DNA of 39,536 bases from NCBI GenBank assembly GCA_016934715.1, contig JAFGSI010000062.1:1-39536 (forward strand). The letters are read 5' to 3'. The notes under the pieces were generated by a model. It saw nothing but the letters and a program-made list of their open reading frames with translations, did not search any database and had not been told where the DNA came from. Of the stretch, positions 8,784 through 22,379 are shown piece after piece. Origin of the DNA: Anaerolineales bacterium. Lineage in GTDB: Bacteria > Chloroflexota > Anaerolineae > Anaerolineales > Villigracilaceae. The position numbers and the translations under genes are program-made. The stretch's first letter is position 1. Each line of letters opens with the position of its first letter.

Positions 8784-10028
8784 ATGAAGAAAAACATGCC
8801 CCAAAAGAAATCGGGAAGCTCTACCCGGCCCAACGCCGGCCTGAGCCAACTGCCGCGCAACGTCTGGGTGGTGACGGCCACTTCCTTCCTGACCGACATC
8901 TCCTCAGAAATGATCGTCAACCTGATCCCGCTCTTTCTGGCCAATGTGCTCAGAACCGGGACAGCGGTGATCGGCCTGATCGAAGGCCTGGCCGAGACGA
9001 CCGCCAGCCTGATGAAACTCTACTCGGGCTGGCTCTCTGACAAGCTTGGCAAACGCAAGTGGCTGACCGTGCTCGGTTACGGCCTGTCAACGGTCGCCAA
9101 GCCGTTCCTGTACTTCGCCAATGGCTGGGGCTGGGTGCTGGGCGTACGCTTCGCCGACCGGCTTGGCAAGGGCATCCGCACCGCCCCGCGCGATGCCTTG
9201 GTCGCCGAGAGCATCGACGAAAAGCAGCGCGGCCTGGCCTTCGGCCTGCATCGGGCAGGCGACACAGCCGGGGCCTTCCTCGGGCTGCTGATCGCGGCAA
9301 TGATCATCTGGGCCACTCAGTCCAGCCGCGAACTGCTCAGCCAGCGCACCTTCCAGATCATCGTCCTGGCCAGCATCATCCCGGCCGTGCTGGCTGTGCT
9401 GGTCCTGGCCCTGGGGGCGCGCGAGGTCCGCAAGGAGGGACCAGCCAGATCCCCGGTGCTGAGTCTGAAGGGCATTGACCGGCGCTTCAGGGCTTTCCTG
9501 TTGGCAATCATCTTGTTCACCTTGGGCAACTCGTCCGACGCCTTTATCATCCTGCGCGGCCAGGAACGCGGCTTGACGGTCCTGCAGGTGATGGGCATGC
9601 TGCTGGTCTTCAATGCCATCTATGCCGCCCTGGCCAGCCCTCTGGGGGCGCTCTCTGATAAGATCGGCCGCCGTAAATTGATCCTTGGCGGCTGGATCGC
9701 CTACGGGTTGGTGTATTTGGGCTTCGCCCTCGCCCGCACCGGCTGGCAGGTCTGGCTGTTGTACGCTTTGTATGGGGTCTACTATGCAGCCAGCGAGGGA
9801 ACCGCCAAGGCCCTGATCGCCGATCTGGTTCCAGCCGAGCAGCGCGGCACGGCGTATGGCCTGTACAATGCGGCTGTCGGGTTGACGGCCTTCCCGGCCT
9901 CGGCCATCGCCGGCCTGCTCTGGCAGGGCGCCTTCAACTGGACTGGCTTCGGGGCCGCGGCGCCATTCTTCTTCGGCGCAGCCCTGTCCCTGTTGGCGGG
10001 AGCCCTGTTCTGGCGGCTGGTGAGGTAG
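8784..10028 (+). CDS. Major facilitator superfamily transporter
   Basis: A 414-residue inner-membrane transporter with about 12 hydrophobic segments in two six-helix halves. MFS motif A appears as GWLSDKLGKRKW between helices 2 and 3, and its counterpart in the second half as GALSDKIGRRKLI. The loop RFADRLGKGIRTAPRDALVAESI is typical of a bacterial MFS branch annotated only as putative efflux proteins. The first ~25 residues are charged and cytoplasmic. The ATG at 8784 has only a weak GAGAG upstream; TGATAATCT at about 8751-8759 may be an extended -10. The SRPBCC gene starts 6 bp after the stop, so the two are cotranscribed. The substrate is unknown. Confidence 0.85.
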   Translation: MKKNMPQKKSGSSTRPNAGLSQLPRNVWVVTATSFLTDISSEMIVNLIPLFLANVLRTGTAVIGLIEGLAETTASLMKLYSGWLSDKLGKRKWLTVLGYGLSTVAKPFLYFANGWGWVLGVRFADRLGKGIRTAPRDALVAESIDEKQRGLAFGLHRAGDTAGAFLGLLIAAMIIWATQSSRELLSQRTFQIIVLASIIPAVLAVLVLALGAREVRKEGPARSPVLSLKGIDRRFRAFLLAIILFTLGNSSDAFIILRGQERGLTVLQVMGMLLVFNAIYAALASPLGALSDKIGRRKLILGGWIAYGLVYLGFALARTGWQVWLLYALYGVYYAASEGTAKALIADLVPAEQRGTAYGLYNAAVGLTAFPASAIAGLLWQGAFNWTGFGAAAPFFFGAALSLLAGALFWRLVR

Positions 10029-10551: not shown

Positions 10552-10580
10552 TTGACAGCAGCCCCTTTTTATTGTATAGT
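10552..10580 (+). promoter_or_regulatory. Near-consensus promoter with very short leader
   Basis: TTGACA (10552-10557), a 17-bp spacer and TATAGT (10575-10580) precede the ATG at 10593. Initiation about 7 bases after the -10 leaves a leader of only ~6 nt with no Shine-Dalgarno sequence. Confidence 0.75.
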
Positions 10581-10592
10581 CGCCCAAATCCT

Positions 10593-11072
10593 ATGACCAT
10601 CCCACAGATGACCGTCCGAGACCTTGTACGCGAAAATGCCTTCCAGATCGTGATGTACATTGTGGGGGCAGTGATCATCGGTCTGGTCTGGTGGCCGCTG
10701 GCTGCAATCTACCTGGCCTACTGCATTCTCTCGAACGTGCTCTTCATGGCCTGGGTCTGTCCGTACTGCGGACATTACAGTCTCGGCACCTGTGCGTCCG
10801 GTTTCCACATCCTGTCCGGGCGGCGCTTCAAGGCAAAATTGGGAACGACCTTTGCCAGGCAGTTCCGCCGCAATGTTTCCTGGATGGCCCTCGGCTGGTT
10901 TCTGCCGCCGATCGCTGGGATTTACCTGCTGATCGTGGACTTCTCTTGGGCCATCCTGGTCCTGTTGTCCGTCTTCTGTGTGGTCGCCTTCTGGCTGTTG
11001 CCGGAGAGCTCCAGGAAGCACTGCGAGGGTTGCGAGACGGGCGACTGTCCGCGGCGGCTGAGAGTGCGCTGA
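10593..11072 (+). CDS. Hypothetical Cys-rich membrane protein
   Basis: A 159-residue protein I do not recognise. It has paired hydrophobic segments at about residues 17-50 and 99-135. Two Cys clusters face the same side: CPYCGHYSLGTC near residue 56 and CEGCETGDCPRR near the C-terminus. Together they could form one zinc or iron-sulfur site bridging the membrane ends. A TTG start seven codons earlier lies inside the promoter spacer and is rejected in favour of the ATG at 10593. Monocistronic: strong promoter in front, terminator hairpin at 11080-11114 behind. Resemblance to membrane proteins of the quinol or heavy-metal type is too weak to name a function. Confidence 0.75.
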   Translation: MTIPQMTVRDLVRENAFQIVMYIVGAVIIGLVWWPLAAIYLAYCILSNVLFMAWVCPYCGHYSLGTCASGFHILSGRRFKAKLGTTFARQFRRNVSWMALGWFLPPIAGIYLLIVDFSWAILVLLSVFCVVAFWLLPESSRKHCEGCETGDCPRRLRVR

Positions 11073-11079
11073 AGTGGAT

Positions 11080-11114
11080 CGGGCGGTGCTACTCCCTGCG
11101 CCGCCCGGTTTTTT
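11080..11114 (+). terminator. Rho-independent terminator
   Basis: CGGGCGG (11080-11086) pairs with CCGCCCG (11101-11107) and is followed by G and six T residues (11109-11114). It ends the Cys-rich membrane protein transcript just before the selenoprotein gene's ribosome binding site. Confidence 0.75.
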
Positions 11115-11132
11115 CCTGCAGGAGGAGCGACA

Positions 11133-12011
11133 GTGATCCAACCCGTTGATTCGTTCCGTTTCTTGGGCGGCATTACCCGCCGCATGGCCGAGACCTGGAT
11201 CAAGCAGGAGCAGCCGCGTCCGATCCCATGGAGACCGCTTAGGAAACCCCTGGCGGAATGCACTGTTGCCCTGTTATCCTCGGGCGGGGTGGCTCTGAAG
11301 GACGACCGGCCATTCAATCAGGACGGCGAACGCCGAAATCCCTGGTGGGGCGACCCGTCGTACCGTCTCCTGCCGAACACGGTCAAAACGGAAGACGTCA
11401 GGGTCTATCACCTGCACATCAACCCGGCCTTTGGCGAACAAGACCTCAACTGCCTGTTGCCGGTAGACCGGCTGAACGAGATGGTCCTGGCCGGCGAGGT
11501 CGGGCGGGCCGCCCTTCGGCATTATTCCACCATGGGCTACATTCTGGAGCCGGAGGAACTGCTCGAAAAAACTGTCCCGCAGATCGTCCAGAATCTTCGT
11601 CAAGACAGGGTAGAGGTCCTCGTCCTGGTGCCAAGTTGACCGATCTGCAACTGGTCCGTGGGACTGGTTCAGCGCGAGATTGAAGCCGCTGGTTTCAGCA
11701 CGATCAGCATTTCCAACGTCTGGGAACTGACCGCCTCGGTCGGGGTGCCGCGCGTGGCGGCGGTCGAACATCCCTTCAGCGCCCTGATGGGCCTGCCTGG
11801 CGACCAGGCGCGCCAGGGCGATGTCTTGCGGTTGGCCTTGCGGGCGCTGGCTGAAGCGAGTGAACCCGGCTCGGTGGTTCACTTGCCGTTCCGCTGGCCG
11901 GTGGACGATGACCTCGACCGGTACCAACCGCCTGAGCCGCCGCCGATCACCCAGTACCTGAAACGGCACATCACCCAGATCCCCCAACTGATCCGCCGGG
12001 AGATCCCGTAG
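11133..12011 (+). CDS. GrdB-like selenoprotein (glycine/sarcosine/betaine reductase B family), TGA read as selenocysteine
   Basis: Read through the in-frame TGA at 11637-11639, the gene encodes 292 residues, with Sec at position 169. The part before (ending EVLVLVPS) and the part after (PICNWSVGLVQREIEAAG) join without a gap, in the same frame, into one GrdB-like protein. Related proteins, as I recall them, carry U-P-x-C-H-Q-[TS]-V-G at this point, so U-P-I-C-N-W-S-V-G is a good match and Sec/Cys172 form the expected redox pair. The C-terminal part keeps family motifs (HPFSALMGLPGDQARQ, VVHLPFRWP). A SECIS-like hairpin lies just downstream of the TGA. GTG start at 11133 follows GGAGGAG. Family members are often annotated as reductases, but the actual substrate is unknown. 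No selA/B/C/D is in the window, so decoding depends on genes elsewhere. Confidence 0.8.
11649..11669 (+). other. Bacterial SECIS-like hairpin after the TGA
   Basis: AACTGGTCC (11649-11657) pairs with GGACTGGTT (11661-11669), nine pairs including two G-U, closing a GUG loop at 11658-11660. The loop begins 18 bases after the UGA and opens with G. This fits the general rule for bacterial SECIS elements: UGA-to-loop distance about 16-37 nt, small apical loop with G in the first two positions. Confidence 0.65.
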
Positions 12012-15818: not shown

Positions 15819-16709
15819 ATGATCAAAGAAATCCAGGCCAAGACCCTGCTCAACCGTGTCAAGGGCCCCGACGACTGGTTCGGGCTCTATTACAGCATGA
15901 ATCTGTTCCGTGGCTGCCAGCACCAGTGCATCTACTGCGACTCGCGCTCCGAGTGCTACCAGATCGAGAACTTCAATACCGATGTGCTGGTCAAGGCCAA
16001 TGCTATTGACCTGCTGCACGATGAACTGGGTCGCAAGCGCGTCGTCGGGACGATCGGTACCGGGTCAATGAACGATCCCTACATGCCGCTCGAGAAGCAG
16101 ATTTGCTTGACCCGCCGGGCACTGAAGGTCATCGCCCAATTCGGCTTTCCGGTTCACGCCATCACCAAGTCGGACCTGGTCCTGCGCGACCTGGACCTGT
16201 TCGCGGACCTCCAGGCGCAGACCTACGCGGCGGTGACCTTCACGGTTACGACTGCTGATGATGAACTGAGCAAGAAAATCGAGCCCGGTGCCCCGGTCAC
16301 GTCCCGGCGCCTGAAGGCGATGCGGTCCCTGGCAGAGAAGGGCATCCTGACCGGCATCACCCTGATGCCGATCCTGCCCTTTATTGCGGATCACGAAGAC
16401 AATCTGCGCCGGATCATCACCCTGGTGGCTGCACACGGCGGCCGTTACGTCCTGCCGGCCCTCGGCATGACCCTGCGCGACCGCCAGCGAGCGTATTACT
16501 TCAAAAAGCTGGACCGGCTCTTTCCCGGCCTGCGCGGTCGCTACGTGGAGGCCTTCGGTGGCCAGTATTTCGCTCCGGCCCAGAATGCCAGCCGGCTGGA
16601 AGCGGTCCTGGGTGGGCTGTGCGAAGAATGCGACCTGCCCACCCGCATGCCGGTCTTCCTCCCCCGCAAGCGGGCCTGCCAGCCAAAGGACCAGCCGCAC
16701 CTTTTTTAA
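15819..16709 (+). CDS. Radical SAM protein of the SplB-like/Rv2578c type
   Basis: A 296-residue radical SAM enzyme. The cluster motif is CxxxCxxC: C33, C37 and C40 in RGCQHQCIYCD. The following GTIGTGSMNDPYMPLEKQ and KVIAQFGFPVHAITKSDLVLRDLDL are typical of the SPL-like branch (spore photoproduct lyase relatives and the Rv2578c group). It is shorter than true SplB and has extra cysteines near the C-terminus (GGLCEECDLP), which may hold a second metal site. The substrate is unknown; DNA photolesion repair cannot be assumed from this branch. Start ATG at 15819 has no strong Shine-Dalgarno sequence. A lipoprotein gene begins 11 bp after the stop and may be cotranscribed. Confidence 0.85.
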   Translation: MIKEIQAKTLLNRVKGPDDWFGLYYSMNLFRGCQHQCIYCDSRSECYQIENFNTDVLVKANAIDLLHDELGRKRVVGTIGTGSMNDPYMPLEKQICLTRRALKVIAQFGFPVHAITKSDLVLRDLDLFADLQAQTYAAVTFTVTTADDELSKKIEPGAPVTSRRLKAMRSLAEKGILTGITLMPILPFIADHEDNLRRIITLVAAHGGRYVLPALGMTLRDRQRAYYFKKLDRLFPGLRGRYVEAFGGQYFAPAQNASRLEAVLGGLCEECDLPTRMPVFLPRKRACQPKDQPHLF

Positions 16710-20994: not shown

Positions 20995-22200
20995 TTATAG
21001 ACCGGCAGCAGCCTTGATGGCGGCGGCCTTGTCGGTGTTCTCCCAGGGGAACTGGACATCGTCGCGGCCGAAGTGGCCGTAGGAGGCCGTCTTGCGGTAG
21101 ATCGGGCGGCGCAGGTCGAGGTCGCGGATGATGGCACCCGGGCGCAGGTCGAAGTGCTCAAGGATCAGGTCGGCGATCTTCTCATCGGTGATCTTGCCGG
21201 TGCCGAAGGTCTCGACGTTAACCGACAGCGGGTGGGCTATGCCGATTGCGTAGGCGACCTGGATCTCGATCCGTTCGGCAACCCCGGCGGCAACCACGTT
21301 CTTGGCGGCCCAGCGGGCGGCGTAGGCGGCCGAGCGGTCGACCTTCGTCGGGTCCTTGCCCGAGAAGGCACCGCCGCCGTGGCGGCCCATGCCGCCGTAG
21401 GTGTCGACGATGATCTTGCGGCCGGTGACACCGGCGTCGCCCATCGGGCCGCCGATGACGAAGCGCCCGGTCGGGTTGACGAAGATCTTCAGATCCTGGT
21501 CGACCATACCCTCCGGCATGACCGGGTTGATGATGTGCTCAATGACGCCCTCGCGGATGTCGGAGTGTGAGACGTCAGCCGAGTGCTGGGTCGAGATCAG
21601 AACGGTGTCAATGCGCTTGGGCTGACCGTGGGCATACTCGACCGTGACCTGAGACTTGCCGTCAGGACGCAGCCAGGGCAGGGTCCCGGCGCGGCGGATC
21701 TCGGCCAGTTTGCGGGTCAGCTTGTGGGCCAGGTAGATGGGCATCGGCATCAACTGGGGGGTCTCGTTGCAGGCGTAGCCGAACATCATGCCCTGGTCGC
21801 CGGCGCCGATCTTGTCCAGATCATCCTGATCGCCGCCCTTGGCCTCCAGTGACTTGCTGACGCCCATGTCGATGTCCGGGCTCTGGCTGGCAATGGCCGA
21901 CAGGACGCCGCAGGTGTTGCCGTCGAAGCCCTTGTCGCTGCTGTCGTACCCTATCTCGTTGATGACCTTGCGGGCCAGTTCGTCGAAGTTGACGAAGGCC
22001 TTGGTGGTGATCTCGCCCAGCAGCATCACGTAGCCGGTCTTGGTGGCCGTCTCGCAGGCGACGCGCGAGTAGGGATCCTGCTCGAAGCAGGAATCCAGCA
22101 CGGCGTCGGAGATCTGGTCACAGACTTTGTCGGGATGCCCTTCGGTGACCGATTCAGACGTGAACATCAGCTTGGGAGAGCTCATAAAAGTGGTGCTCAT
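20995..22200 (-). CDS. metK: S-adenosylmethionine synthetase
   Basis: A 401-residue enzyme making SAM from ATP and methionine. Signature motifs: [23 protein letters not shown] near the N-terminus, [12 protein letters not shown] in the middle, and the P-loop-like [16 protein letters not shown]; the central [17 protein letters not shown] is also invariant-like. Length is slightly above the usual ~385-395. ATG at 22200 is preceded by GAGAGGTG; a second ATG five codons in (MSSPKL) is possible. Expression is controlled by a SAM-I riboswitch in the leader, giving feedback by the product. Confidence 0.97.
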
Positions 22201-22277: not shown

Positions 22278-22379
22278 CTCTCATCTTCCAGATTTCTCTC
22301 TGCCGGAATTAGCACCTTTTCAATGTGAAAGGTTGCTGAGGCTTCGTCGGGCCGGTCCCTCCGCCTCTCTGGATAAGAG
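22278..22379 (-). promoter_or_regulatory. SAM-I (S-box) riboswitch aptamer
   Basis: Reading the minus strand from 22379, the S-box signature appears in order. CTCTTATC (P1 5' strand) comes first, then AGAGGCGGAGGGACCGGCCC, then GACGAAGCCTCAGCAACC, then GGTGCTAATTCC. GATGAGAG (22285-22278) closes P1 with one G-U pair. All conserved core blocks (GGAGGGA, CGAuGAarCC, GCAACC, GGUGCuAAuUCC) are readable. With the promoter upstream and the attenuator downstream, the control of metK is fully defined. Confidence 0.95.

Follow-up and report, generated by a model that had tools for sequence, protein, structure and literature searches.

A PrdB-like gene from an Anaerolineales bacterium with an in-frame TGA that almost certainly encodes selenocysteine

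The question raised by positions 11,133 to 12,011 of the DNA analysed here (a stretch of 39,536 nucleotides from an Anaerolineales genome, referred to below as the window) is whether a TGA codon that interrupts an otherwise open reading frame ends a broken gene or is read as selenocysteine (Sec), and, if the latter, what sort of protein results. A first-pass annotation, made from the sequence alone, had argued for a selenoprotein and called it GrdB-like. It held that the two halves lie in one frame and that standard gene calling would split them, and both observations were borne out: the + strand carries a single frame of 292 codons, consisting of 168 from the GTG (11133–11636), the TGA and a further 123, closed by a TAG at 12009–12011, and the table-11 ORF listing breaks this frame into 11133–11639 and 11658–12011. 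The residue in question, U169, would lie in the context LVPSUPICNWSVG (the features are collected in Table 1). Comparison with 10 close relatives gives pN/pS values of 0.26–0.46 before the TGA and 0.37–0.62 after it, and since these lie below 1 on both sides for all ten relatives it follows that both halves are under purifying selection.

Table 1 Coordinates, within the window, of the predicted selenoprotein gene and its signals.
Feature	Position	Strand	Remarks
Predicted PrdB-like selenoprotein gene, 292 aa (TGA = Sec)	11133..12011	+	GTG start, TAG stop
TGA, predicted Sec codon, residue 169	11637..11639	+	motif S-U-P-I-C (UxxC)
Shine-Dalgarno-like AGGAGG (11120–11125) and GTG start codon (11133–11135)	11120..11135	+	sequence
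Putative bacterial SECIS hairpin, 9 pairs (11649–11657 with 11661–11669), loop GTG 11658–11660	11649..11669	+	

A class-wide search covering 396 genomes found the PrdB-like gene in 60 of them (the own genome included), and at every one of the 30 best-scoring loci (29 relatives plus the gene of the window) the Sec column holds TGA. When a profile search was applied to the phylum, homologues were found in 101 of 400 genomes (again counting the own genome), from which 18 rows with no stop, or with only TAA or TAG, were picked together with 2 rows having TGA for a check of the column; the pick of 18 leaves out the shorter stop-free fragments of the list. All 18 of these purposely picked non-TGA loci have Cys at the Sec column, and both TGA picks have TGA there. 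Over the 115 relative matches the column holds TGA in 93, TGC in 13, TGT in 5, CGA in 2 and a gap in 2, the 18 loci with a Cys codon reducing to 16 distinct tails; after collapse of the whole set to 89 distinct 60-nt tails (the own tail included), a step that merges multiple locus ids for one gene as well as identical tails across genomes, the count becomes 72 TGA, 16 Cys and 1 CGA, of which the Cys share reflects the fact that Cys forms were deliberately sought. This is the pattern of Sec and Cys homologues that the first-pass annotation had anticipated. Elsewhere, two plasmid-borne alphaproteobacterial relatives have Cys at the column and four annotated PrdBs have TGA (4/4). The Cys of UxxC is not universal, a frame-broken copy (L025) having Trp in its place. 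Two smaller observations may be recorded here. Two TGA rows (L119 and L120) have a tail very similar to that of L102 inside an otherwise Cys clade, which would represent a recent switch between Sec and Cys, in either direction; and a same-family copy (L068) has CGA at the Sec column, the search having counted one TGA and one TAA inside it, and looks like a decaying gene.

The hairpin that follows the TGA agrees with what is expected of a bacterial SECIS element. The part of a review in which the bacterial model is set out (PMC13188914) gives a loop of 3–9 nt, a stem of 4–16 bp, a G in the first two loop positions, a distance from UGA to loop of 16–37 nt and an MFE of ≤ −7.5 kcal/mol; here the stem starts 9 nt after the TGA and has nine pairs, the loop has three bases (G first, then U) and lies 18 nt after the TGA, and the isolated hairpin has an energy of −9.1 kcal/mol, so that the nine-pair hairpin with a G-first loop, as first described, fits the model as published there. 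Folding energy in context is unremarkable, the 71-nt stretch 11620–11690 being no more stable than its dinucleotide shuffles (z +0.32; 121 of 200 fold as well or better), and for this reason the case for a SECIS element rests on comparison and not on stability.

The covariation test was made on 21 of the 30 alignment rows, the window among them, using 500 shuffles. Across these rows 93.1% of the cells of the stem in Table 1 are paired, and five of its nine pairs show changes on both sides, a number reached by 6 of the 500 shuffles; the covariation score of the stem is 0.339 as against 0.198 when shuffled, and no shuffle (0/500) attains it. Slid registers give at most 57.1% pairing and a covariation score of at most 0.133, and RNAalifold itself predicts the eight inner pairs of the stem. 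Twelve of the 21 rows lack the outermost pair, and one measure of covariation is weaker, in that 52 of the 500 shuffles have at least as many further pair types. It is the compensatory changes in the stem that back the earlier call of a SECIS-like hairpin. The coding sequence itself bears this out in another way: in a set of 12 close rows that includes the window, codon choice in the stem is nearly fixed, Ser being TCC in 11 of 12, Gly GGA in 12 of 12 and Leu CTG in 11 of 12, while the loop codon (Val, GTN) varies in the same rows, and mean codon identity is 0.68 for the five invariant residues of the hairpin stretch as compared with 0.40 for the 61 outside it (permutation p 0.0012). A stem with nearly fixed codons around a loop codon that is free to change makes a tidy case of RNA constraint within coding sequence.

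The other nine of the 30 rows (L026–L034), which share the motif U-P-x-C..NVP, are without the GTCC-GTN-GGAC letters and have a seven-pair hairpin with a six-base loop, lying five columns further downstream (columns 20–39 from the TGA). Of its cells 96.8% are paired and 0 pairs are changed on both sides, so that the comparison neither supports nor refutes it; it is presumed to be the SECIS of this sister NVP clade, which would make two SECIS registers for one protein site. As for the Cys forms, the best single hairpin has a mean energy of −14.3 kcal/mol over the 72 TGA tails against −9.3 over the 16 Cys tails (Mann–Whitney p 0.0002), a test confounded by kinship, since the eight Cys forms (of 16) that were placed in a tree make up one clade with two TGA rows; some Cys tails, moreover, fold well (L103 at −17.5 and L109 at −15.2 kcal/mol). 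As a sign that Cys forms may be losing the SECIS, the contrast is only partly usable.

The first-pass annotation had suggested looking for selA, selB, selC and selD in the same genome, and all four are there. The own genome, a draft of 4,089,344 bases in 88 contigs that is 97.8% complete, contains, each over its family cut-off, selA (527 bits), selB (357), selD (367) and tRNA-Sec (70), and ARAGORN likewise finds a tRNA-Sec, its anticodon being TCA; RF01852 also exceeds its cut-off at one other place (L002, 48.2 bits), a tRNA-Ser according to ARAGORN. The own selD (L016) has one in-frame TGA, in CAG-U-ASKL, followed by a seven-pair hairpin that begins 26 nt after the TGA and has a GTC loop, 33 nt after it, comparable to the GTG loop of the PrdB-like gene, and SelD is probably itself a selenoprotein. 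Of 120 same-family genomes 115 have selA, yet a profile search found a homologue of the PrdB-like gene in only 12 of 152 (own included), so that its occurrence is sporadic and it may not be essential.

That the TGA might be a true stop or a recent mutation, leaving a broken gene or reflecting a sequencing error, can scarcely be credited: it accounts for the local facts that the frame is interrupted and that the folding energy is no better than that of shuffles, but it is rejected in view of the 72 distinct tails, the own one among them, that keep TGA at the column, the covarying SECIS, the purifying selection on both halves (past the TGA included) and the full Sec machinery. The TGA at 11637–11639 is almost certainly read as selenocysteine; on this reading, which comparison supports, SelB carrying Sec-tRNA would bind the hairpin just past the UGA and the ribosome would insert Sec at residue 169.

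As regards the kind of protein, the description GrdB-like stands in part. Membership of the superfamily is upheld, the protein passing the gathering score of PF07355 (GRDB) with 31.2 bits against a cut-off of 22 over residues 31–166, a match that spans only profile positions 214–345 of 347; it is also the sole PF07355 match in the own genome at E ≤ 1. However, the GrdB-type models give 33–51 bits, below every GrdB-type cut-off (33.2 bits against 602 in the case of TIGR01917 (GrdB), over profile positions 260–396 of about 431), whereas the best NCBIfam model, TIGR04483 (D_pro_red_PrdB), gives 138.2 bits over residues 28–255 and is matched at E ≤ 0.001 by all 30 rows of the class alignment. The GrdB label has accordingly been dropped in favour of PrdB-like.

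With TIGR04483 as the best match, and with TGA at the Sec column in all of the four annotated PrdB loci, it might be supposed that the product serves a true D-proline reductase as its PrdB subunit, fermenting proline together with PrdA, but this is very unlikely. The score is under half of the TIGR04483 cut-off of 300, whereas the annotated PrdBs that were scanned (n=3) score 310–425 bits. Among 48 chosen rows placed in a tree (LG+C20), the four annotated PrdBs form a separate clade (100/100), beside a mostly Cys clade, and a 100/100 branch sets off the 11 rows of the window clade, which groups with the NVP clade (99/97); some caution is needed over the long branches L048, L063 and L067 of this tree, the last of which is possibly joined falsely to the alphaproteobacterial pair. 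A tblastn search at E ≤ 1e-3 picks up PrdA in each of the four loci with an annotated PrdB but in neither the window nor any other compared record (139 records totalling 629,655 bases, with many short stretches among them), nor did TIGR04480 or PF09338 (PrdA/GrdE type) have a match in the own draft genome. Since both of these models were also silent in 14 of 14 control genomes, an annotated PrdA was used as the positive control, and both recognise it; and since the own genome is a draft in many contigs, the failure to find PrdA there is no proof of absence. On the strength of the sub-cut-off score, the separate clade and PrdA not being found, the D-proline reductase identity is rejected as largely refuted: judged by these measures the protein falls outside the definition of the D-proline reductase subunit, even if its mode of action may be a related one, and it is predicted to be a stand-alone member of the GrdB/PrdB superfamily with a clade of its own.

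Set beside the known systems, the protein resembles D-proline reductase PrdB in superfamily, Sec column and UxxC motif, with 31–33% identity to the listed annotated PrdBs; it differs in length (292 residues against 237–241), in score and clade as already described, and in having neither PrdA, PrdD nor a CBO2463-type gene in the window. With the GrdB, GrdF and GrdH proteins (PF07355, TIGR01917, TIGR01918) it shares a passing PF07355 score, GrdB likewise being tabled as a UxxC selenoprotein; it is set apart from the B component of glycine/sarcosine/betaine reductase by the partial cover of the profile, by the low GrdB-type bits and by the genome giving no match to PF09338. Published tables and passages that touch on these proteins list D-proline reductase (TIGR04483) as UxxC (two reviews, PMC9312934 and PMC13188914) and place PrdBA as outgroup to the glycine reductases (PMC9751293), and a survey section of 2006 gives 3 selenoproteins for Chloroflexi (PMC1794560). 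In the parts of two ocean surveys that deal with them, PrdB-type UxxC proteins are the third most abundant selenoprotein family of the Sargasso Sea, with 42 Sec sequences (PMC1088965), and pfam07355 is represented by 235 Sec and 110 Cys forms in the GOS data (PMC2398784). Going by those parts, the window gene belongs to a selenoprotein family reported since at least 2005; the environmental ‘PrdB’ selenoproteins have UxxC in common with it. Two proteobacterial Cys members, from Roseomonas and Haematobacter, fall outside the window clade; both are annotated at NCBI as ‘glycine/sarcosine/betaine reductase selenoprotein B family protein’, and neither has an annotated prd gene next to it. In Roseomonas (L135, 2887–5272) the stand-alone Cys-type relative adjoins SelO. 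No literature specific to the window clade was found among the open-licence papers searched.

Nine named records with related loci are Anaerolineales, Ardenticatenaceae and other Chloroflexi or Anaerolineae MAGs and one Terriglobia MAG. Neighbouring ORFs were compared between the window and nine loci (L049–L057), and 13 wider loci were compared among themselves. No neighbour gene is common to the whole clade in either set, and only pairs were found. An MFS transporter at 8784–10028 has as its relative the ORF adjoining the gene in L052 (30% over 113 aa), and in L051 the gene is directly preceded by a radical-SAM ORF related to that at 15819–16709 of the window (57% over 271 aa), which sits 3.8 kb from the PrdB-like gene; related proteins also occur near the gene in L123 and L124 (59% over 96 aa). 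A fluoroacetate operon proposed elsewhere also holds a transporter and a radical-SAM oxidoreductase, to go by the portion of PMC10838667 describing it. As single pairs drawn from common families, these linkages amount to a weak lead only. Immediately upstream, at 10572–11072, lies a small, membrane-like protein containing CPYC and further Cys motifs, for which no Pfam match at E ≤ 0.001 and no relative among the ORFs of L049–L057 was found. Between it and the selenoprotein gene there is a strong hairpin followed by six T (11075–11120, −26.7 kcal/mol) that looks like a terminator; a terminator scan of the region does not list it, and a scan for sigma-70-like promoters lists none between this hairpin and 11133. 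Further away, a SAM riboswitch at 22278–22379 (−; 94.6 bits) stands upstream of an ORF at 20995–22200 (−), presumably MetK from the way it reads, an ordinary arrangement.

An AlphaFold model (9 rows, Sec modelled as Cys; pLDDT 79.4, pTM 0.84) puts residue 169 between a predicted strand (162–167) and helix (172–185), a usual place for a nucleophilic redox residue. A Foldseek search of the PDB with the model gave no match at E ≤ 0.001, so that any mechanism rests on sequence kinship. The best VIA-align match is a LacI-type regulator (Z 8.1, 145 residues, 3.9 Å), with short-chain dehydrogenases and various other folds coming next (Z 7.6 or lower), scores that may reflect only a common arrangement; that no PrdB or GrdB structure appears in the listed rows proves nothing. 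In the PDB sequence search the best profile row was a de novo design, with no stretch passing. Since in GrdB/PrdB chemistry a selenol attacks a carbon of the bound substrate, the following scheme, drawn from motif, predicted fold and that chemistry, may be offered tentatively, as one whose chances fall a little below even. The product would be a cytosolic reductase in which Sec169, near the start of the helix, attacks the substrate, Cys172 of the UxxC motif resolving the adduct on selenium through a selenenyl sulfide, to be reduced in turn by a thiol system.

The failure to find a partner of PrdA/GrdE type in the draft genome suggests either attack on a substrate that is reactive enough without pyruvoyl activation or a role in thiol-disulfide exchange, and these two possible roles are not well separated by the data. 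The latter, under which the selenoprotein would be a general thiol-disulfide or peroxide reductase and not a substrate-specific enzyme of reductive cleavage, is a real possibility, if not a probable one. A free-standing gene with UxxC, a pyruvoyl partner that was not found and no clade-wide neighbour are what such an enzyme might be expected to show, and PrdB is tabled as UxxC among thiol-dependent redox selenoproteins in the Sargasso Sea study, as far as its table goes (PMC1088965). Against this, the 30 divergent rows have 19 invariant columns, the majority of which lie at a distance from UxxC (Gly73, Asp74, Arg78, His93, Asp104, Pro206 and Arg207 are examples), and conservation of this kind suggests a pocket for a substrate more than a redox site alone. 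The alternative role would make the window and NVP clades of Chloroflexota GrdB/PrdB-fold selenoenzymes that carry out reductive chemistry on a new substrate with no pyruvoyl subunit, using two SECIS registers (loop at 18 or 23 nt), and this, too, is a speculation to be rated on the doubtful side of even. The selenol alone would then attack a carbon that is already electrophilic, as proposed for the GrdB-like fluoroacetate reductase of Synergistota, which, in the account given in the relevant portion of PMC10838667, has a GrdE-type partner, whereas here there would be none.

All this said, the reading as a whole, namely that of a 292-residue Sec protein belonging to a stand-alone clade and probably acting as a UxxC reductase, is very likely to be correct. 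Reading the TGA as Sec brings back 124 residues that standard gene calling would split off or drop, the presumed active site among them. PrdB-like selenoproteins rank among the most abundant selenoproteins of the ocean surveys, to judge from the sections of these that report them, and the window clade offers clean material for a study of the function of their stand-alone forms.
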